DNA of 46,259 nt from a virus. Below the pieces are notes generated by a model that saw nothing but the letters and a program-made list of their open reading frames with translations, ran no database searches and was not told the origin of the DNA. The stretch is from the IMG/VR virus record IMGVR_UViG_3300023223_001411, positions 1-46,259 of that record, one strand, 5' to 3'. Made by a program: the position numbers and the translations under genes. Shown here one piece after another: positions 3,984 through 46,259 of the stretch. Positions within the stretch are counted from its first letter, which is position 1. The number at the start of each line of letters is the position of its first letter.

Positions 3984-4025
3984 AAATACAGTCGGTACGC
4001 AATACGTTGTATGCCGACTGTATTT
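3984..4025. terminator. Strong hairpin terminator, 12-bp stem
   Basis: AAATACAGTCGG at 3984-3995 pairs perfectly with CCGACTGTATTT at 4014-4025 across an 18-base loop, just after the stop at 3978. An A-rich 5' side and T-rich 3' side make it usable on both strands. It ends the left-end operon and isolates the DUF3800 gene downstream. Confidence 0.75.
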
Positions 4026-4114
4026 ATTTGCTACATATTGTTTTTATAAATAAATGAACAATTATATATGGATTTAGTAATTAAAGGAAAGGCAATAATA
4101 GGCCGAATAATATT

Positions 4115-4786
4115 ATGATAATGAGTACTTATTTTGGATTTATAGACGATGTGGGGAACCCATCGGATAAAAACCAGCGGTTTTATGGCACCGGATTATT
4201 GACGCTGGAAAATCCCACAAAATTACACGAAATAATTAGCAAGCGGTTGCGGATTGGTGGATATGGCAGACAAGAAATAAAATTCCAAAATATAACCCAC
4301 TCAAGCCACAGCATGTACCGTATAATTATAAAAGAGCTATCAATATATTTTAAAACCAATCAGGCCGGATTTTCCTGTATAATTGTCGATAGCTGGGCAA
4401 GATCAGAAAAATCAACCCAATATGAGCAATATATAAAACTATCTGAGCAGTTAATAAGCGAAAGTAAAATCGATAGATTCACAATTCTTGCCGACGCTAT
4501 GACAGCGCCAGCACATGAAGATATAAAATTTACAGATGCTTTAGAAAAAATTGACAGCGTACAAAACGCTATGATGCTGGATTCTCGCTCTACCCTCTCG
4601 CTTCAATTGGTTGACGTCTTGTTAGGATGTGTAATTGCTGGGATAGCGTGGGAAAATGGATTAAAATATAAAAACATTCATAAACATATGGTCAGCAACC
4701 AATTAAAAAACGAAATAAATTTGGAAAGTTATACACATGGAAAAACGAATTTACCTTTTTCAATAAAGTTTCTCGTCGGTGGATGA
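4115..4786 (+). CDS. DUF3800-family protein
   Basis: A 223-residue protein with the DUF3800 layout: N-terminal FIDDVGNP (the family's FIDESG motif, with a second Asp), a central strand-rich half, a mid-protein Asp (LADAM) and the C-terminal LQLVDVLLG helix that matches the family's LQLADLIAG. DUF3800 proteins are predicted to have an RNase H-like fold with acidic active residues; the reaction is not known. The gene stands alone between a terminator and the promoter at 4804, is AT-rich and looks like an accessory gene. A second ATG at 4121 is equally possible as start. Confidence 0.75.
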   Translation: MIMSTYFGFIDDVGNPSDKNQRFYGTGLLTLENPTKLHEIISKRLRIGGYGRQEIKFQNITHSSHSMYRIIIKELSIYFKTNQAGFSCIIVDSWARSEKSTQYEQYIKLSEQLISESKIDRFTILADAMTAPAHEDIKFTDALEKIDSVQNAMMLDSRSTLSLQLVDVLLGCVIAGIAWENGLKYKNIHKHMVSNQLKNEINLESYTHGKTNLPFSIKFLVGG

Positions 4787-4803: not shown

Positions 4804-4832
4804 TTGACAAATGCTATGCCATATTTTATAAT
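4804..4832 (+). promoter_or_regulatory. Perfect sigma70 promoter, TTGACA-17-TATAAT
   Basis: Both hexamers are exact consensus and the spacer is exactly 17 bases (4810-4826). Transcription should start near 4839, at the first arm of the folded leader. It is the strongest promoter I can find in the window and faces the 62-aa gene and the replication/recombination operon. Confidence 0.9.
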
Positions 4833-4838
4833 CACTTG

Positions 4839-5010
4839 CCGGAGACTGAGTGTTAAATACAAAAAATAATCAGAAATATAATAGGGAGCGTGAGATACGG
4901 GAATCGGAATGTCTCGTCGGGGCATTCGGGGTCGGCAATCCGTTGTCGAACTCAGTCTCCAGCTCAGTACTGTACTCACCTCCCTATTTTCCTAATAGAC
5001 TGGAGACTAT
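4839..5010 (+). ncRNA. Structured 5' leader with mutually exclusive pairings (candidate RNA switch)
   Basis: The leader contains three long complementarities. (A) 4841-4851 pairs with 4950-4960, 11 of 11. (B) 4881-4894 pairs with 4975-4987, 13 bp with one bulged C. (C) 4954-4962 pairs with 5000-5008, 9 of 9. Pairing C buries the GGAG ribosome site (5002-5005) of the gene at 5011. A and C share bases 4954-4960 and cannot coexist. B crosses both, so it could form only as a pseudoknot or an alternative state. A G-rich stretch (4900-4945) fills the middle. This is a layout expected of a translational switch; the ligand or trigger is unknown. The repeated GGAGACT could instead be protein operators. 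Confidence 0.55.
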
Positions 5011-5199
5011 ATGGGAAGCATACCACTTAAAGAGGCACTGTCAGAATTTGGCATCCCTCATGCAGTTATCGAACTGCATAAAGCAATTAAGTCATGCAAG
5101 AAAAATAAAAGTGCACGAATTCAATTCGAAATTTATGATAATAAGCTGAAAGGATGTAAGGCTGAAATTGATAGCGATATAAAAGATATTCTTAAGTAA
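5011..5199 (+). CDS. Small basic protein after the structured leader, 62 aa
   Basis: Begins MGSIPLKEAL with GGAG six bases before the ATG; that ribosome site is inside the leader's pairing C. The protein is helical at the start, then has a basic patch (KSCKKNKSAR) and an acidic end. It lies between a perfect promoter and two tandem terminators, a position like that of an antiterminator or early regulator. No family recognised; the role is inference from position only. Confidence 0.6.
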   Translation: MGSIPLKEALSEFGIPHAVIELHKAIKSCKKNKSARIQFEIYDNKLKGCKAEIDSDIKDILK

Positions 5200-5200
5200 T

Positions 5201-5222
5201 ACCTGAACATACAGGTTTTTTT
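5201..5222 (+). terminator. Intrinsic terminator 1 after the 62-aa gene
   Basis: ACCTG (5201-5205) pairs with CAGGT (5212-5216) around a six-base loop and runs directly into seven T residues. Short stem but classic form. It begins two bases after the stop codon. Confidence 0.65.
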
Positions 5223-5225
5223 AAC

Positions 5226-5282
5226 AAAGCCGATTGTTCGCAAAATCCAACAAGGGAAATGCGAATAATCGGCTTTTTTTTT
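5226..5282 (+). terminator. Intrinsic terminator 2, about 16-bp stem with long T-run
   Basis: Bases 5226-5241 pair with 5261-5276 (AAAGCCGATT ... AATCGGCTTT, with one mismatch in the middle), followed by a T-run to 5282. It stands directly before the nuclease gene at 5301, with no room for a promoter between. Transcripts from 4804 therefore reach the replication operon only by read-through or antitermination. Confidence 0.8.
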
Positions 5283-5300: not shown

Positions 5301-6272
5301 ATGGAAGAGCGGAAGATGTTACTCACAAACTCAAGGCGTAATGTCTATGGGGATTGCCAGCGAAAACACTATTACAGGTATGAGTTAGGATACCAATCCG
5401 TAAGAACCGCGCACGCCCTTTACTTTGGGCGGATGATACATGAGGCATTAGAGGCGTGGTATCTGTCTGACTTGGGTAAAGCCCTCAATTATTTAGATAA
5501 AATTATAGTAACTGAATGGAATGTATACGACATCGTGACATGTATCGAACTGATAAAAGGATATGATATTAAATATAGAAATCAAGATTTGGAAGTTATC
5601 GGTATTGAAAAAGAGTTTCGTGTTCCGTTGGTTAATCCTGAAACCAATCGAGCATCACAGAACTTTGACATGGCAGGAAAACTTGACCTGCTACTTGCTA
5701 ACGGGATTCTTGAACATAAAAGCACTACCAAGGATATTTCTGAGGGTAGCGAATATTGGGCTAACCTTTTTCTTGATCCACAGATTAGCCAGTATGTTAT
5801 CGGCGGTGAATCTTTAAACGTAAATATTGAAACCATTATTTATGATGTTATCAGAAAGCCATCCATTAGACCATTCAAAGCCACACCACAAGAAAAGCGA
5901 AAATATTTAAAAGATGGTGTCACCCTCATTGCCAGCCAGCATGAACATGATGAAGAGCCAGAGGCATTTGGTCAACGCATAAAATATATCCTAGATAATG
6001 ACATGGACGGGTATTACGTCCGCAAAGAAATCCCACGCATACAATCGCAGCTTGAAGATTTCAAGCATGATATGTGGGCAGTCTCTCAAAATATCCGTCA
6101 AAGCCAGTTACATAAACGCTGGCCTAAAAATCCACGGGAGTGCTTACGATTCGGCAAGTGTCCGTATTGGGGTGTCTGTACACATTCTGAAGAGTTAACG
6201 GACACTGATGTATTTGAAAAATTAGAATTCAAACATCCTGAATTATCGGAGGCCATAAATGAGAAACTTTAA
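5301..6272 (+). CDS. Cas4/RecB-like PD-(D/E)XK nuclease
   Basis: A 323-residue protein with the full motif series of the PDDEXK_1 family: H47 in GRMIHEALEAW, D129 in GKLDLL, the E-x-K of LEHKST (E138, K140) and a QY motif in DPQISQYVIG. Cys19 plus three cysteines in CLRFGKCPYWGVC near the C-terminus would bind a 4Fe-4S cluster, as in Cas4 and AddB. Such nucleases trim DNA ends for phage recombination. GGAGG precedes the ATG, and the 3' end overlaps the ATPase gene by 14 bases. Paired with the Sak4-like gene it forms a recombination module. Confidence 0.85.
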   Translation: MEERKMLLTNSRRNVYGDCQRKHYYRYELGYQSVRTAHALYFGRMIHEALEAWYLSDLGKALNYLDKIIVTEWNVYDIVTCIELIKGYDIKYRNQDLEVIGIEKEFRVPLVNPETNRASQNFDMAGKLDLLLANGILEHKSTTKDISEGSEYWANLFLDPQISQYVIGGESLNVNIETIIYDVIRKPSIRPFKATPQEKRKYLKDGVTLIASQHEHDEEPEAFGQRIKYILDNDMDGYYVRKEIPRIQSQLEDFKHDMWAVSQNIRQSQLHKRWPKNPRECLRFGKCPYWGVCTHSEELTDTDVFEKLEFKHPELSEAINEKL

Positions 6273-7164
6273 AGATGAAATAAAGCAAAGCGGCTCAGAC
6301 CTCCCTCCCAAAATTGTAATAATGGGTCAGGAAGGTGTAGGTAAATCCACATGTGCAAATGGCGCTCCCTCCCCTATCTTTCTATGCGCTGAAAACGGAT
6401 TGACCGGACCGGAATTTAGAAATACAAAAAACTGGGAGCCGGTTGCTTGGTCTGAGACATTAGATTTTCTTGAATGGCTTTCAAAAGGCGATCACCAATA
6501 CCAAACGCTGGTAATTGATACTGTTGACTGGCTTGAGTCCATGCTTTTTGAAAGTATGTGTATTGACCACAGCTTTACAGCCATGTCAGATTTCGGCTGG
6601 CGAAATGGCTACCAAGCCGCCGCTATGGAATTCCTTCGCTTTCTCCAGAGAATTGAAACCGTACAAAGCCAGACCGGAATGTTGGTTGTAATAAATTCCC
6701 ATGTGGATATACGGCTCTTTAAAAATCCGGTAGGTGATGATTACGATAAATACCAGATGAAAATCTGCAAGGAAATATCTGGTAAGCTGAGAGAATGGGC
6801 GGACGCTGTATTGTTTGCACACTTTGAATCTGTTGTAGTTAAAAAGGGCAATGATCAGCGACCAAAAGGTATTGGTGGTTCAAAACGTGTATTCCATACC
6901 ACTCACTGCGATGCATGGCAGGCAAAAAATAGATACGGAATGCCAGAGACCTTTGACTTCAAAAAGGAAAGCGGAATGAAAGATATTCTGGCTTACATCG
7001 ACAATGCCAATATCGATGTGGTAAATCTGAAAAACTCGATTACAACCATGGCAGACAAAAAATATGATAAGAAAAAAGCAAAGGAAATTCTGCAATTTGT
7101 AAAAACTGAATCAGATGTAAATAAATTAATCAAACTTGAAACTAAAATGAAAGAGGAGAAATGA
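6259..7164 (+). CDS. Sak4-like RecA-fold recombination ATPase
   Basis: A 301-residue ATPase with Walker A GQEGVGKST (residues 23-31) and Walker B LVIDTVDW (84-91), followed by the sensor-like VVINSHVDIR and a C-terminal Lys-rich helix. Size and motifs fit the phage AAA_24/Sak4 group, RecA-core ATPases that promote single-strand annealing or exchange together with a phage ssDNA-binding protein. Directly between the Cas4-like nuclease and the likely ssDNA-binding protein; overlaps the latter by four bases. Confidence 0.82.
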   Translation: MRNFKDEIKQSGSDLPPKIVIMGQEGVGKSTCANGAPSPIFLCAENGLTGPEFRNTKNWEPVAWSETLDFLEWLSKGDHQYQTLVIDTVDWLESMLFESMCIDHSFTAMSDFGWRNGYQAAAMEFLRFLQRIETVQSQTGMLVVINSHVDIRLFKNPVGDDYDKYQMKICKEISGKLREWADAVLFAHFESVVVKKGNDQRPKGIGGSKRVFHTTHCDAWQAKNRYGMPETFDFKKESGMKDILAYIDNANIDVVNLKNSITTMADKKYDKKKAKEILQFVKTESDVNKLIKLETKMKEEK

Positions 7165-7625
7165 ACGAAGTAACAATACCGAACGGTCGATACAATGCTG
7201 TGGTTGCGGATCATAGCCTTGCGGAGTCAACAAACACTGGTACACAATCCGTCAAATTAAAAATTGAATTGGTTACAAATTTTGATACTGGCAAGGATGC
7301 TCAGGGAACTTTATGGCACGATCTCTGGCTCAGTGAAAAGGCCATGAAATTTACGCTTGATACTCTGTACAAGGTTCTGGACTGGGAAGGTTTCGATATT
7401 AAGGAACTGAATAACGGTGAGGTGTTACAGGAGCGACCCGTTGTCATTGAAGTGAAAAATGAGGTTTGGGAGAAAAAATCACGCCCGAAAATAAAATACC
7501 TCGGAAAAACTTTCGGCATGACACGCAAAAGTGATGATGAACTGGATGAAATGGAACTGGTAAACCGCGATATTATGAATTACCGGCAAGATAATAACAT
7601 GCCAGAGCCGGGGCTGCCTATATAA
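7161..7625 (+). CDS. Probable ssDNA-binding protein (DUF669-like)
   Basis: A 154-residue beta-rich protein beginning with IPNGRYNAVVADHS, then VKLKIELVT and VVIEVKNEVW strands, and an acidic C-terminal region ending in a Pro/Gly tail. This is the form of the DUF669/SSB-like proteins that follow Sak4 ATPases in phage recombination modules. Coupled by ATGA with an AGAGGAG ribosome site. Assignment rests on order and fold pattern; I cannot see a diagnostic motif. Confidence 0.6.
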   Translation: MNEVTIPNGRYNAVVADHSLAESTNTGTQSVKLKIELVTNFDTGKDAQGTLWHDLWLSEKAMKFTLDTLYKVLDWEGFDIKELNNGEVLQERPVVIEVKNEVWEKKSRPKIKYLGKTFGMTRKSDDELDEMELVNRDIMNYRQDNNMPEPGLPI

Positions 7626-8177
7626 ATGCAATACCTGACTATCAAAAACCTTGAAAAATATCATCCCGGCTATAAAGACCGATCATTGATATGGTGTAAA
7701 ATCTATTTCTCTATGCTGAACTCTGATTATGAATTTGAAATGCTGGATGAAATTGCTTCATGGCGATACGTCAAATTCATAATGCTTCAGATTCAAACCA
7801 AAAAGCCAGTACCGCTTAACGAGTCATGGCTGAAGAAAAAAGGATTTGACTTCAAAAAACAGCCTATGTCCGTGACACTAAAAATGTTACATAAATTCAT
7901 CGATCTTGTAACAGAATGTAACGAAACCGTAACGCAGAGTAGAGTAGAGAAGAGTAGAGAAGAAGAAGAGAAGAAACCGTTACGCCTGCATGACTTCGTT
8001 CTGATTTCAGAAAAGGAGGCCAAACGATTGGCTGTGGACTATGGCCCGGAGAACTGCAAGGACTATACCAGAAGGCTCAATGAATACATAGGTAGTAAGG
8101 GCGATAAATACAAATCACATTATCATACGCTAAGGATGTGGATGGATAGAGATGGAAAACGAAGACCAAAAGTGTAA
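7626..8177 (+). CDS. Replisome organiser / replication initiation protein
   Basis: A 183-residue protein. The first 95 residues look like a winged helix (DRSLIWCKIYFSML ... WLKKKGFD). A charged linker (SREEEEKK) follows. The C-terminal 60 residues carry the pattern RRLNEYIGSKGDKYKSHYHT, ending in RMWM, which matches the C-terminal domain of phage replisome organisers that recruit the host helicase. The origin may lie inside or near this gene, as in lambda O, but no iterons are obvious. It overlaps the next gene by 26 bases. Confidence 0.72.
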   Translation: MQYLTIKNLEKYHPGYKDRSLIWCKIYFSMLNSDYEFEMLDEIASWRYVKFIMLQIQTKKPVPLNESWLKKKGFDFKKQPMSVTLKMLHKFIDLVTECNETVTQSRVEKSREEEEKKPLRLHDFVLISEKEAKRLAVDYGPENCKDYTRRLNEYIGSKGDKYKSHYHTLRMWMDRDGKRRPKV

Positions 8178-8565
8178 TCAGGACATATGCGATGGGCTGG
8201 GATGGGCGGTAATCCTGTTGGTAGCAGTGGGTGATACCAAGCGGGAGTTGGTGCCTAAATGCCACCTGAACCTACTACAGTCCTCTCTCTCCTCCATTGT
8301 GGCGAAGGGATACAGTATCAGGGATCAGGTCGTGAGGTGCGACTGTGAGCGCCACAAAGTGCTGAAACTGGCCTCAAACGTGAACCCTGAGAACGCATCC
8401 GTATTTGACATACCTGACTATGAGGGGAAATTAGACCTCCCTTTATTCTACAAGGATATTATTAAGCGTTCGCATCAATTCAAGTATGATGAAACAGCAG
8501 GCCGTTATGATATTCAAATGATGTGTAACTATCATGAGTTTTTAAATAAAATGGAGGAGAAGTGA
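8152..8565 (+). CDS. Hypothetical protein, 137 aa
   Basis: Start inside the end of the replication gene (MENEDQK). Contains a hydrophobic patch (GWAVILLVAVGD), a CDC-x2-H motif that may bind metal, and a conserved-looking acidic C-terminus. No family recognised. It ends in a GTGA overlap with the next gene. Confidence 0.55.
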   Translation: MENEDQKCNQDICDGLGWAVILLVAVGDTKRELVPKCHLNLLQSSLSSIVAKGYSIRDQVVRCDCERHKVLKLASNVNPENASVFDIPDYEGKLDLPLFYKDIIKRSHQFKYDETAGRYDIQMMCNYHEFLNKMEEK

Positions 8566-8822
8566 TATATCACCCTGACTTGTTTGGAGGCGAAACGCCC
8601 ATACTGCGACACATAAATCTGAGTCCATTCCAGCAATTCAGGATTCAAAATGACTACCGCAAAGGCGATAAGTCCAGCAATCATTGTGGTACTTGCAGAT
8701 ATTATACGATCCGCGAAGTTGCAAACAGGTATCATAAATGCCGTTTAATGGGCGTTACTGCCTCTGTAGCCACTGATATCAGAAAGTTTGGCGTATGTGA
8801 TAGGTGGCTTGGAAATGATTAA
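8562..8822 (+). CDS. Small zinc-binding phage protein, GTG start
   Basis: An 86-residue protein starting at GTG, with GGAGGAG seven bases upstream. Its second half shows CGTCRYY ... YHKCRL ... ATDIR ... CDRW, a four-cysteine pattern I recognise from many phage genes placed just before VRR-NUC nucleases. Likely a zinc protein of the replication operon; biochemical role unknown. Confidence 0.65.
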   Translation: MIYHPDLFGGETPILRHINLSPFQQFRIQNDYRKGDKSSNHCGTCRYYTIREVANRYHKCRLMGVTASVATDIRKFGVCDRWLGND

Positions 8823-9243
8823 ACGCAAGCCACCCAAAAAAGCAAAAACACTAGAAAAGGAGATTCAGGCATATGTCGATTGGAAAATCAAGAATGAGGG
8901 CTGGCCTTGTATACGTATTCCAGATGCTCTTTACAAAGCTGTTTTCCGTGCTGGCAATAACATTCCACCTCACGTGGGTAATATTATTAGTCAGTATCTT
9001 ACTGGTCTACCGGATAATATTGTCTGTCTTGGAATGGGTACGAGATTCTTTTTGGGCTGTTCTGTTGAAAATAAGTCCGATGTCGGAAAGCTACATGGAA
9101 AGCAGAAAGAGTGGGCGCGAAAACTCAATACAAATCTGGTACGAACCAGACCGGAAATCGACAGAATATTAAAACAAATGGAGAAATTACACGCTCTATT
9201 GGAAGTTGAGGTGATTAAATTTGAGGAAGAAAATGGACCCTGA
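8815..9243 (+). CDS. VRR-NUC domain nuclease
   Basis: A 142-residue protein, taking the ATG at 8815 that overlaps the previous stop. It shows the VRR-NUC motifs in order: an N-terminal helix (LEKEIQAYVDWK), GLPDNIVCL (the Asp), ENKSD (the E-x-K) and GKQKEWARKL (the family's Q-x2-W helix). VRR-NUC proteins are PD-(D/E)XK nucleases related to FAN1 and to phage Holliday-junction or flap nucleases. It probably resolves replication or recombination intermediates. Confidence 0.8.
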   Translation: MIKRKPPKKAKTLEKEIQAYVDWKIKNEGWPCIRIPDALYKAVFRAGNNIPPHVGNIISQYLTGLPDNIVCLGMGTRFFLGCSVENKSDVGKLHGKQKEWARKLNTNLVRTRPEIDRILKQMEKLHALLEVEVIKFEEENGP

Positions 9244-9319
9244 TCACGAGATGTATCTATTTTTGGGTGCAATAGTTATACTGGCGGTAATTTTAAAGGC
9301 AATCGGAGTGATACCATGA
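9233..9319 (+). CDS. 28-aa membrane peptide
   Basis: Starts inside the end of the nuclease gene, with GAGGAAG just upstream, and overlaps the next start as ATGA. The peptide is a short acidic lead (MDPDHEMY) followed by one membrane helix (LFLGAIVILAVIL). Coupling on both sides supports translation; function unknown. Confidence 0.5.
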   Translation: MDPDHEMYLFLGAIVILAVILKAIGVIP

Positions 9320-9570
9320 GGATTAACAGAGACAGTTTTTACTTTACCATATTGAAATCAGCTATCAATGATTCCACTGGCCCGTTTGATATGGAGGACA
9401 TTGACATATATGTGCTGGAAGCCTGTAAAAAATCGAGCGACTTCCCTCACCGGATGCAAGCAATAAAGGAATTAGCGGTGGATGCCAAGCAACCTATCAA
9501 CAAAGACAATCTAATTACTATAATGAATCAAATAATTGATATAGTGGATGAATCAACGGGAAGAAATTAA
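9316..9570 (+). CDS. Hypothetical protein, 84 aa
   Basis: ATGA-coupled, ribosome site TCGGAGTG. All-helical acidic protein starting MRINRDSFYF, without cysteines in pairs. No family recognised. It overlaps the next gene by 23 bases. Confidence 0.55.
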   Translation: MRINRDSFYFTILKSAINDSTGPFDMEDIDIYVLEACKKSSDFPHRMQAIKELAVDAKQPINKDNLITIMNQIIDIVDESTGRN

Positions 9571-9826
9571 ATTAGCCGTACTGGACGCTTTGCAGGAATT
9601 CCAGCCAGAGAGTCAGGATGACACTTGGGTTGGACTAGAAGGGGCGGCACAGCGCTTAGGCATCACTAAAAAGACTGTCATAAATCGAATATATGAATGG
9701 AAACGCGGGAACCTTGACTTGGCAAAGCCATTCTTTACAAAGGTTCGTGTGTACAAGCCAAAGGGCTGTGATTATAGATTCAGGAAGAATGATATTGATA
9801 AGTATATAGTGCAGTCAAAACTTTAA
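9548..9826 (+). CDS. Small HTH protein (MerR/excisionase-like)
   Basis: A 92-residue protein with a helix-turn-helix of the HTH_17 type (LEGAAQRLGITKKTVINRI), followed by a basic wing ending in DYRFRKNDIDKYI, the usual end of AlpA/Xis-like proteins. Last gene of the rightward operon; its stop overlaps the stop of the convergent gene at 9823. It could be the excisionase partner of the integrase or a late switch protein. The distance from int makes either only a suggestion. Confidence 0.65.
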   Translation: MNQREEIKLAVLDALQEFQPESQDDTWVGLEGAAQRLGITKKTVINRIYEWKRGNLDLAKPFFTKVRVYKPKGCDYRFRKNDIDKYIVQSKL

Positions 9827-9987: not shown

Positions 9988-10177
9988 TTGGCACTAATGG
10001 TATCGGTCCATACCACCACCATTTGGAATACTTCTCTGTTATTTTTACTATTGCTTCATTAATCATATACGGCTGTCCTTCTATAATTATAACCTGTTCT
10101 CTAACTACGGATTTAACAACTGGATTATTTCTCAGATAAAGACCTTCCTCGGTCGGTATATTATGCGTCCATTTCAC
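9980..10177 (-). CDS. Hypothetical small phage protein, 65 aa
   Basis: Starts MKWTHNIPTEEGLYL, the opening of a widespread type of short phage protein of unknown function (W-x-x-x-x-P-x-x-x-G-x-Y). The rest is strand-rich and ends in WWWYGPIP. It overlaps the TIGR02147 gene by four bases. Confidence 0.6.
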   Translation of the reverse strand: MKWTHNIPTEEGLYLRNNPVVKSVVREQVIIIEGQPYMINEAIVKITEKYSKWWWYGPIPLVPNE

Positions 10178-11004
10178 TTAAAATCCTTTGTAGCTTGGCA
10201 AAACTGCATAGTCAAAACGGACACCCTGTCTACCTTTTCATAATCAGCAAGGGCAATGGCCTCCACGCTTTTTTTAAATTTTAACACCTCTCTGCTTACG
10301 TCATTCAGCGCATTTTCCGATAGCGACATTGCTACGTGTATCGTGGACACTTTCTCCATATTGTCAATAATATTGGCTCTTTTCAGAAAAGCACCCACGG
10401 CTGATTTATGTAAATTATTTCTACCTATTGAACCACTTTTATATGCCAGTTCGAAAGCTTTTTTTACCGGCTTCCAAAATCCCTCTTTGTTTTTTCTGAT
10501 TAATTTTAATCTCTTAAATAATTTAATAGAAGCCCTTGCCTCATAGTTCCTGATTGCGGGCCGGAGCAATGACGCCAAACTATCGTAATCGTTTTTAACA
10601 TTGCGGATTCTTAGCAGGTTCAATATAACAGGATTGTACCAATCCCTATAAACCTCAGATAAATAGTATTCCTCTGTGCGCCCAAATTTTCTATTACTAT
10701 CAACTAAATTTTTATAAGCTATGTTTTTTTTATCATACGTTTTAGCCTTGCTGAACGCAACCAAGCATCTGAAGTATATCTCCCTATATTTCAGAAGGCC
10801 CATGACTTTCAGAAATTTTTCCACCCAATCTTTTGATAAGTGGCGCCTGCCAGCCATTAATTCATTCAAAAATCCAGTTGAATTAAACCCTGCTCTCCTT
10901 GCGAATTCCCTTACAGTAAATCTTCTTCTTGTTCTTTTCTCATGCCGGAACCAATCCTTTATAAATTCCCTGTAGTCCATATACTCATATATTTCTACTG
11001 CCAT
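10174..11004 (-). CDS. TIGR02147-family putative regulator
   Basis: A 276-residue protein with the TIGR02147/DUF4423 layout: N-terminal EYMDYREFIKDW, then FARRAGFNSTGFLNELM and GRRHLS (an HTH-like helix pair), EIYFRCLVAFSKAKT, and a long helical C-terminal half. The family is expanded in Fibrobacter succinogenes and occurs in Chitinivibrionia and Bdellovibrio relatives, where it is thought to be a DNA-binding regulator. GGAGG lies nine bases before the ATG. In this phage it could be the lysogeny regulator or a copy taken from the host; which is not shown. Confidence 0.82.
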   Translation of the reverse strand: MAVEIYEYMDYREFIKDWFRHEKRTRRRFTVREFARRAGFNSTGFLNELMAGRRHLSKDWVEKFLKVMGLLKYREIYFRCLVAFSKAKTYDKKNIAYKNLVDSNRKFGRTEEYYLSEVYRDWYNPVILNLLRIRNVKNDYDSLASLLRPAIRNYEARASIKLFKRLKLIRKNKEGFWKPVKKAFELAYKSGSIGRNNLHKSAVGAFLKRANIIDNMEKVSTIHVAMSLSENALNDVSREVLKFKKSVEAIALADYEKVDRVSVLTMQFCQATKDFK

Positions 11005-33442: not shown

Positions 33443-33742
33443 TTAAGGCTCGTCTACTACAGTAACCTTACCCCAAACTTTACCACCACCGTCATTTTTG
33501 TTACGAACAAAAACTTCACCGATAGTTGCGGTTTGAAGGAAGAAAATACTGCATCGAGGAGCCGTATCATACGTGGTTACACCCTGCGGAGTAACAGTAC
33601 CATAAATCTTATGGAATTCTGTTTTCGGCGCTCCGCTCAGAATGACACGCTCAAAGTTTGTATATCCAAACAAACCGAACTTATCATCCTGAAACTCCGC
33701 AAGGTTTTCTTCACGACTTACTATCTCTGTATTATCAGCCAT
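33443..33742 (-). CDS. Capsid-associated (decoration-like) protein, 99 aa
   Basis: Beta-rich 99-residue protein directly after the coat gene, starting MADNTEIVSR. Mid pattern FERVILSGAPKTEFHKIYG. By size and place a head decoration or minor head protein; no family recognised. Confidence 0.5.
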   Translation of the reverse strand: MADNTEIVSREENLAEFQDDKFGLFGYTNFERVILSGAPKTEFHKIYGTVTPQGVTTYDTAPRCSIFFLQTATIGEVFVRNKNDGGGKVWGKVTVVDEP

Positions 33743-33752
33743 GATTCACTCC

Positions 33753-35000
33753 TTACGATGAGGTGAAATTCGCCAGACCACTGTGAGTACAGAATACCAG
33801 TGAACTGATATTTTTCCCCTGCCGTCCTGTAGGCGCAAGACCCACTGGTTCATGTGACTTCCAATCCGCACGTGCAGTTCCCCATATTTCATGAGCCTGC
33901 ACACCTTGGAAGTTACCGTAATCAATGGTCTCTTCGTTAAACTGTAATTCCTCACCCATAGCCATGTTCACCGCACCCCGACCGAGAATCAGGTTTGCTT
34001 TGATATCTTTAGTATCAAAGACACTGTGGCGAGTGGTGGTTCCGTAGACCGGAGTTGTAGAAGGTCTGGTCACACCATGAACATGAGGAGAAACGTGAAT
34101 TATAAACTGCCCCTTGTAGATTCCCTTGGCTCCGGTAAAAATGGGATTTTCATCCCCACGGACACCAATGGTTTCCAGCAATTTCCACCACTGTGCATCA
34201 GCTTCTGCGGCCTGTTGCCAAGTGTTGGTGTGAAGCAGCGCAACGTACATACGGTCATTACCCACGTTGATAGGCTCAATTTCATTGTTTTCAATGAAAG
34301 GGATGAGACGATCAAGTGCTTGCAAACTGAATGCATTTGCGGCACCCGCTCCGGCTACGATCATATCGTTGACAGCTGTACCTACGTTGGTTTCGTAAGT
34401 GGCAGGTGTGTCATCGAAAAGAACTTCACCTTGGGGTGCGTTTGCGTTATCGATTCCCAACACATAAAAATTCGGATGGGAAGTGTAATCCTGAGTGAAT
34501 CCCAAACCGCCATCTACCTTTGCGGCAGATACATTCCGAGAAACGCCTTCATAAAGGGCGCCATATACCTCGAAATCGGTTTCCAACCCGTACCACTGTC
34601 CTAGCTGTGGCCGGGCCTGTTGGAACAACTTCAGTTTCTTAGAACGCTGACGTGAAGCACGTCCGGGTGAACGAACAGCATGTTTGGTAACGTTGATACG
34701 CACTTCCGTTGTTTCGGTTTTCTGCGTCTCTTCAGAACCAAGCATCTGCTTGTCACCAATAGTGGCTTCATTTTTCAACCGGCGCATAAGCGGCATGATC
34801 ATACTGTCACGTCCCTCACTTACGAACTCAGTTTTTTTCATTATAACGTTCTCAGGAACATCGTCGCCGGGAGCCAATTCAGTTGTCATTTTAAAGAAAT
34901 AAGTATTCTTATTTCTCTCCATTTTGAGGGACTCATCCAGTAATTGCGGATTCAACGCCGCATTAAAGGCAGACCCCTCGGTATCTACAAAAGATGACAT
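33753..35000 (-). CDS. Major capsid protein (DUF4043/N4 gp56-like)
   Basis: A 415-residue protein starting MSSFVDTEGSA. Motifs of the DUF4043/P22-N4 coat group: an N-terminal KNTYFFKMTTELAPGDD, EGRDSMIMPLMRRLKNEA, TKHAVRSPGR, LGQWYGLETDFEVYGAL, and the strand NDRMYVALLHTNTW. It follows scaffold and portal in gene order. It should form the HK97-fold shell. Confidence 0.8.
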   Translation of the reverse strand: MSSFVDTEGSAFNAALNPQLLDESLKMERNKNTYFFKMTTELAPGDDVPENVIMKKTEFVSEGRDSMIMPLMRRLKNEATIGDKQMLGSEETQKTETTEVRINVTKHAVRSPGRASRQRSKKLKLFQQARPQLGQWYGLETDFEVYGALYEGVSRNVSAAKVDGGLGFTQDYTSHPNFYVLGIDNANAPQGEVLFDDTPATYETNVGTAVNDMIVAGAGAANAFSLQALDRLIPFIENNEIEPINVGNDRMYVALLHTNTWQQAAEADAQWWKLLETIGVRGDENPIFTGAKGIYKGQFIIHVSPHVHGVTRPSTTPVYGTTTRHSVFDTKDIKANLILGRGAVNMAMGEELQFNEETIDYGNFQGVQAHEIWGTARADWKSHEPVGLAPTGRQGKNISSLVFCTHSGLANFTSS

Positions 35001-40781: not shown

Positions 40782-41047
40782 GCAGGCAAATGTGAATTAA
40801 GATAAATTTTTCTCTGCGCATTCCCCTTGTATTCCGGGTCACGAAATTTAACGGTGTCCTGCACAGTGACAAACTCATCGTTGGTTGCAACCATAATTTC
40901 ATTCTTATCAATGGGAATCATGCATTCCTTTTCTTTCCACGAGCCAATGTCTTCCCACATATTATGATGTCTGTATTTTACGACAATGAATCGGCCCTCG
41001 TTGGCCTTGCCTTCTTTAGTGGTAATACTTTTAATCTCCTTTGCCAT
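40778..41047 (-). CDS. Hypothetical protein, 89 aa
   Basis: Basic to neutral, beta-rich protein (RFIVVKYRHHNMWEDIG). Starts inside the end of the co-chaperonin gene. No family recognised. Confidence 0.55.
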   Translation of the reverse strand: MAKEIKSITTKEGKANEGRFIVVKYRHHNMWEDIGSWKEKECMIPIDKNEIMVATNDEFVTVQDTVKFRDPEYKGNAQRKIYLNSHLPA

Positions 41048-41507
41048 TGTCTACCCCCGCTGTTGCCAGAGTTTCGGCTGGACCACTTGCTAAGTCCGCG
41101 TCCTGTTGCTCCAGATTTTTACGTTGCTGTTCCATTAACTCTTCATACTCCCTATCTGAATAGTAATTGACACGACAGACAATATCAGCTGGGTCAATCA
41201 TCCTATAGGTATTCCCGCCGTCACGAACATCAAACCCGGCGTTGCGAGCAAACATGATTCGGTCCCCACTGAAGATATCAGGGATATGGATTATTCCGTG
41301 CTCATTTGCGAGGCTGGACCCGACCGCGACCACAACTCCCATTTCTGGCGTGCGCTTTAGTACATCACCATTAACAATGATACCGCCTTTTGTCTTCTCC
41401 ACATCGGTAACTGGTTTAACCAGAATACGCGGACCAATGGGTTCTAATATTACAATACGTTTCTGATCTTTCTGTTTATCAGAGATCAATGGTTTCCTTG
41501 GTGGCAT
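41031..41507 (-). CDS. GroES-like co-chaperonin with C-terminal extension
   Basis: A 158-residue protein. Residues 23-113 have the Cpn10 pattern: IGPRILVKPV, the mobile-loop part KTKGGIIVNGDV, GVVVAVGSS, HIPDIFSGDRIMFARNAG and YRMIDPADIVCRV. Host GroES is about 95 residues; here a 22-residue basic N-terminal addition and a 45-residue Gln/Glu-rich C-terminal helix are added. AAAGGAG precedes the ATG. Probably redirects host GroEL to phage coat or other virion proteins, as T4 gp31 does. Confidence 0.82.
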   Translation of the reverse strand: MPPRKPLISDKQKDQKRIVILEPIGPRILVKPVTDVEKTKGGIIVNGDVLKRTPEMGVVVAVGSSLANEHGIIHIPDIFSGDRIMFARNAGFDVRDGGNTYRMIDPADIVCRVNYYSDREYEELMEQQRKNLEQQDADLASGPAETLATAGVDNGKGD

Positions 41508-45999: not shown

Positions 46000-46115
46000 A
46001 TACGGCTCCTATTATAAATATTTTACTAAAAATAATTTATGAGTACACCTCCTGACCCCCAGTGCCGGGGTGGCTGAATCGAAAAAGGGGGACCGGGGGG
46101 TGTCGGTATTGAGGG
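46000..46115. promoter_or_regulatory. GC-rich gap before the terminal repeat
   Basis: No gene. An AT-rich part next to the leftward gene has TATAAT at about 46009-46014 (minus strand), but no good -35 lies 17 bases away. Bases 46050-46105 are G/C-rich with runs of C and G (CCCCC, GGGGG, GGGGGG), unlike the surrounding DNA. This island could be a packaging or regulatory site; a partial tRNA-like string in it (GGGGTGGCTGAA) does not extend to a full tRNA. Confidence 0.4.
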
Positions 46116-46259
46116 TATCAGCATTATTTATATTACTGTACATCATATCTATTCTGTACATATTTCTAGGTCAATACCCCTATTTGCTAGGCGGAATGCA
46201 CATATTCATACACATGTACTTTTAAATGTCTATAATTGTGTTGTACACAAAGGGGTTTC
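46116..46259. repeat. 144-bp terminal direct repeat, right copy
   Basis: Exact copy of 1-144; see that entry. Its left border abuts the GC-rich island at 46050-46115. Confidence 0.95.

Follow-up and report, generated by a model that had tools for sequence, protein, structure and literature searches.

The leader region re-examined here (positions 4839-5010) lies in the 46,259-nt IMG/VR record IMGVR_UViG_3300023223_001411, which was analysed over its full length and is referred to below as the window. The two ends of the record (1-145 and 46115-46259) repeat each other directly over about 145 bp, which makes a complete phage genome, circular or circularly permuted, probable. The preceding operon is closed by a terminator at about 3985-4030, and between this strong terminator and the leader there is a DUF3800 gene (4115-4786, plus strand), possibly an independent cargo unit. 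Elsewhere, the window encodes a phage Cpn10 (GroES-like) protein (41031-41507, minus strand), and its most stable fold for its GC content is located at 33541-33755 (minus strand), adjoining a putative major capsid gene. The leader starts near 4839, downstream of a constitutive-looking promoter that the initial annotation had rightly described as perfect and that turned out to be the sole perfect one among all promoter-like sites of the window. Following this promoter are, in order, a target copy, a multibranched RNA with an antisense segment, a target on the ribosome site, and a gene for a 62-aa protein (Table 1).

Table 1. Positions of the features of the leader and of the adjoining early region in the window.
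Feature	Position	Strand	Remarks
Sigma-70 type promoter TTGACA-17-TATAAT	4804..4832	+	Sole 12/12 match in window
Upstream target A1, at transcript 5' end	4841..4851	+	11/11 complementary to 4950-4960
C4-like antisense RNA (putative)	4880..4988	+	MFE -45.9, z -4.65, 0/200 shuffles as stable
Antisense segment S, 13 nt	4950..4962	+	Complementary to both flanking targets
Downstream target A2, over Shine-Dalgarno GGAG 5002-5005	5000..5008	+	9/9 complementary to 4954-4962
62-aa first gene, without known family	5011..5199	+	Codon score 0.318
Intrinsic terminator t1	5201..5222	+	Short stem and T-run; one base past stop codon of the 62-aa gene
Strong intrinsic terminator t2	5223..5282	+	Arms 5223-5242/5260-5279, 90% complementary, T-run, -28.8 kcal/mol
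Early recombination/replication genes (exonuclease, Sak4, replisome organizer)	5301..9826	+	

The codon use of the 62-aa frame is phage-like, as judged from a median score of 0.24 for phage genes and a 95th percentile of 0.18 for wrong frames. A search for homologues of the encoded protein found none, and its predicted structure is all-helical, with low confidence (pLDDT 69, pTM 0.36). Another open frame, of 99 codons (4850-5149, plus strand; GTG start after a GGAG at 4841), overlaps both the leader and the 62-aa frame; it was considered as a leader peptide and rejected, its codon score of 0.057 being like that of wrong frames. Terminator t2 precedes the exonuclease-Sak4 operon. The promoter at 4804-4832 is the only strong one close upstream of this early operon and, because no sigma-70-like promoter was found between t2 and the first gene of the operon, the latter would probably be reached by read-through from 4804. 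Such read-through would fit a CI-like gating of the replication genes.

Three long pairings had been reported in the leader, and recomputation reproduced all of them exactly. Pairing 1 joins 4841-4851 with 4950-4960 (11/11, or 13/14 if extended to 4838-4851/4950-4963). Pairing 2 joins 4880-4888 with 4980-4988 (9/9) and, past a bulged C, 4890-4894 with 4975-4979 (5/5), and lengthens into a 19-bp stem with two 1-nt bulges. Pairing 3, between 4954-4962 and 5000-5008 (9/9), does include in its second arm, as claimed, the GGAG of the gene at 5011. These pairings are real and above chance: of 1000 shuffles of 4839-5010 that preserved the dinucleotides, one contained a perfect helix of 11 bp or longer and none contained three of 9 bp or longer, nor were three such helices found in any other 172-nt slide of the window. 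The description of the pairings as mutually exclusive holds for pairings 1 and 3, which have the bases 4954-4960 in common, and fails for pairing 2, which indeed crosses both of the others, as had been noted, and could coexist with either of them as a pseudoknot.

Compared to shuffled sequences, the full 192-nt leader shows only a moderate excess of folding (z -2.39, as against -4.65 for 4880-4988), indicating that the structure sits in the middle of the leader and is closed by pairing 2. In this core RNA, the closing stem (4880-4900/4970-4988; 19 bp, two bulges) encompasses two hairpins, 4904-4929 and 4932-4949 (9 and 7 bp), which are followed by a 20-nt junction; the third hairpin is weak, and the inner stem has predicted pair probabilities near 1. 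The topology alone is not rare, inasmuch as a multiloop closed by a stem of at least 15 bp appeared, under a lenient rule, in 27 of 1000 shuffles. Segment S is located in the junction between the second hairpin and the 3' strand of the closing stem.

With context included, the duplexes of A1 with 4950-4960 and of A2 with 4954-4962 are predicted at -23.9 and -16.3 kcal/mol, respectively, which is stronger than the duplexes predicted for P1 (-8.4 to -11.2) and P4 (-12.6 and -14.3). Folding of the arms under constraint, proposed in the initial annotation as a check, yielded no support for burial of the ribosome site in cis: in a model that leaves out pseudoknots, forcing pairing 1 or pairing 3 (the one that buries the ribosome site) gave folds 7.8 and 12.6 kcal/mol above the free fold, respectively. 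In the free ensemble, the GGAG at 5002-5005 is predicted to be 92% unpaired, within a hairpin loop, and segment S to be roughly half open. Given the cost of the pairing-3 fold and the predicted exposure of the GGAG, an "off" state in which the leader closes its own ribosome site is not favoured by the model; as this site is predicted to be open in the leader itself, repression would most likely need a second, antisense copy acting in trans.

A covariance search against Rfam, also suggested at the outset, matched none of the 4227 families, including riboswitches and cis-regulatory RNAs. The C4 model (RF01695; gathering score 45 bits) had no match in the window even at an E value of 10, the scores in the same search being 74.9 bits for P4 and 68.8 bits for P1, and the c4-a1b1 model (RF03163) had none in the window at its gathering score. 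The opinion that no named counterpart of this layout exists is nonetheless not supported, since the layout matches that of the C4/CI antisense leaders of P1 and P4 (see below). A strict descriptor required perfect matches of 9 nt or longer on each side together with an enclosing stem no shorter than 9 bp; from 2.5 Mb, on both strands, it retrieved only the window and one other locus (L064). The latter was rejected as a second triple-segment locus, being a GGGACGAAG repeat array inside a coding region; in this IMG/VR contig, GGGACGAAG-like direct and inverted repeats occupy L064:7102-7240. A 7-mer triple descriptor produced 30 matches and, hence, is not specific; the evidential weight rests on the combination of the triple segments with the enclosing stem. 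Relatives of the region were sought by blastn in phages and plasmids and by exact DNA patterns, and close relatives by protein scans (Sak4, the 62-aa protein, exonuclease, terminase, capsid), with none found by any of these routes. A Sak4 alignment found 160 distant loci, and the leader was absent from three of the best-conserved Sak4 neighbourhoods. Of 27 records, a single-sequence covariance model (R1) recovered only the window, and 297 genomes gave no match to it. As the collections searched contained no relative, the pairings draw no support from covariation.

Taken together, the above data support the view that the leader is genuinely built to regulate, as RNA, the gene at 5011. To this extent, the earlier notion of a built RNA switch stands; a ligand-type switch in cis is not supported, its off state being disfavoured by the predicted energies. 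Here we argue that the leader is probably of the C4/CI antisense type, a single-segment variant that heads the early replication genes. The main rival to this reading, in our judgement an unlikely one, is a switch or attenuator acting in cis only, in which the nascent RNA would form the 4841-4851/4950-4960 pairing and then refold to the 4880-4988 stem or to the ribosome-site pairing, under the control of a ligand, of translation, or of the speed of transcription. Step-wise folding would suit such a course, with the 5' pairing being best for transcripts that end at 4960-4980 and the stem dominant by 4990. However, the ribosome-burying fold is costly, the GGAG is predicted to be mostly open, Rfam contains no matching riboswitch, and the likeness to the C4/CI leader arrangement would be left unexplained.

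Much less probable still is the alternative put forward in the initial annotation, namely that GGAGACT/CTGGAGACT is a protein operator present in three copies, with the RNA pairing a by-product of oppositely oriented repeats. There are three copies, and one of them is directly at the transcription start, but another coincides exactly with the ribosome site, the 13-mer has no further copy within two mismatches elsewhere in the window, the surroundings of the integrase and regulator genes included, and neither the 19-bp stem nor the strongly stabilized core fold is related to the motif, all of which weakens this alternative. A put-type antitermination RNA, with the folded leader modifying RNA polymerase in cis for read-through of t1 and t2 into the early operon, would account for a structured RNA after a strong promoter, for two terminators, and for an operon without an evident promoter of its own. 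It would not explain why there are two target copies, one of them on the ribosome site, and Rfam gave no match, in sequence or in structure, to any known antitermination RNA; we deem it as improbable as the operator. Finally, the 14-bp inverted repeats 4838-4851/4950-4963 might be the ends of a small insertion or of an invertible segment. Although the 13/14 inverted repeat that flanks 98 nt would suit a mobile or recombination element, this has a close to negligible probability: no second copy was found in the window and no target duplication beside the repeats, and the closing stem runs, with 4970-4988, beyond the segment bounded by them.

If the leader is of the C4/CI antisense type, the promoter at 4804 would make one transcript containing a target, the RNA that displays the antisense segment, the target on the ribosome site, and the 62-aa gene. 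Processing would release the 4880-4988 RNA, which could then act in trans, targeting the ribosome site on transcripts like its own and blocking the translation of the 62-aa gene, be it in prophage maintenance, superinfection immunity, or copy control. With less assurance, the block can be envisaged also to let less transcription through t1 and t2 to the exonuclease-Sak4 operon, in analogy to the effect of CI RNA on the replication genes of P4. The 5' target copy might bind the antisense segment during transcription of the latter, or else be a sponge or a second target.

Antisense immunity of the C4/CI kind has been described from Proteobacteria and their phages. The window encodes a regulator of the TIGR02147/DUF4423 family (10174-11004, minus strand; E 7e-53), a family named for Fibrobacter, without a match in annotated phage records; this family hints at a host outside Proteobacteria, as a lead rather than an identification. 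At its cut-off, the Rfam C4 model matched 33 of 249 genomes sampled from the phylum to which a Burkholderiales genome belongs, and none of 241 and none of 284 from the phyla of a Chthoniobacterales and a Myxococcales genome, respectively, in counts from which filters lose some weak matches. We tentatively suggest, as a possibility rather than a probability, that the locus represents RNA-based phage immunity like that of P1 and P4, either built independently or too diverged to be recognized, in a host that may lie outside Proteobacteria, with one fused antisense segment blocking the ribosome site and gating the replication operon. A module of C4/CI anatomy that is invisible to the Rfam model would imply that this strategy is wider than annotated, and the layout rule of target, antisense, and target on the ribosome site provides a way to find further cases.

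The C4/CI layout of P1 and P4 belongs to experimentally known phage RNAs that are used for staying dormant. C4 is a three-stemmed RNA that RNase P cleaves at the 5' end of its closing stem, and one of its loops covers the ribosome site (PMC5320573). The CI RNA of P4, whose pairing sites are seqA upstream and seqC downstream, blocks the expression of the replication genes via early termination (PMC4825925). For comparison, the Rfam C4 was located in P4, P1, and four further loci (L174, L175, L176, and L177), and core segments of at least 7 nt with a complement both before and after the core were recorded. In P4, the partners of a segment of 8-9 nt are at -144 and at +35, and ten bases separate the downstream one from the 65-aa ORF. 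In P1, b' has its partners at -68 and at +29, the downstream one being ten bases ahead of a 73-aa ORF, and a' has its own at -82 and +0. The proteobacterial Rfam-C4 locus L175 is similar, with b' partners at -62 and at +33, the second of them ten bases ahead of a 52-aa ORF, and a' partners at -77 and +6. Jointly, P4, P1, and L175 have upstream partners at -62 to -160 and a Shine-Dalgarno target about 10 nt before an ORF of 52-73 aa. In L176 and L177 only the a' pair was evident, and L174 gave no clear case of flanking complementary segments. In the window, the partners of the 11-nt and 9-nt matches are at -39 and at +11, respectively, the second of them ending two bases ahead of the 62-aa ORF, and the core contains only one segment of at least 7 nt with both partners.

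The window and the C4 of P1/P7 (RF01695; targets c4-a1b1, RF03163) share the order of promoter, targets, structured RNA, targets including the ribosome site, and small gene; the P1 record is annotated with a1,b1 targets, C4 (48343-48419), a2,b2 targets, and icd. In both, a long stem closes two strong hairpins and the antisense segment is in the 3' junction, S being placed where a' sits in P1 C4, after the second hairpin, and in both the core is complementary to an upstream stretch and to a downstream one at the ribosome site of the first gene. Unlike P1 C4, the window has a single long antisense segment where C4 has a' and b' apart, a weak third hairpin, a bulged closing stem and, in place of an antirepressor gene overlapping or following icd, two terminators and then the exonuclease gene. 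Because of the single antisense segment, the missing antirepressor gene, and the lack of a match to RF01695 or any other Rfam model, we do not file the window RNA as a C4 member; it is C4/CI-like by anatomy, with homology to C4 unproven, and the likeness is compatible with both shared descent and convergent design. The HK022-type put RNA resembles the window in being a structured leader straight after an early promoter with terminators downstream, and it is not known to have target repeats or a role at a ribosome site.

The arrangement seqA - cI/seqB - seqC - kil of P4 recurs in the window as one segment complementary to a site on each side, the downstream one at the Shine-Dalgarno sequence of a small gene (65 aa in P4), with early replication genes downstream. 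In P4, these genes are controlled by CI RNA, whereas in the window their position would suggest such control. The segment lies in the loop of the second hairpin in P4 and in the junction in the window, P4 has an isrK-like RNA around seqA, and termination is Rho-dependent in P4, as opposed to the intrinsic terminators of the window. The 62-aa gene is positioned like kil of P4 (65 aa) and icd of P1 (73 aa), its product resembling neither Kil nor Icd. By anatomy, A1 would be the counterpart of seqA in P4 and of a1/b1 in P1, and A2 that of seqC in P4 and of b2 in P1, and relative to shuffles the core of the window (z -4.65) folds much like P1 C4 (-4.69) and P4 CI (-5.17).
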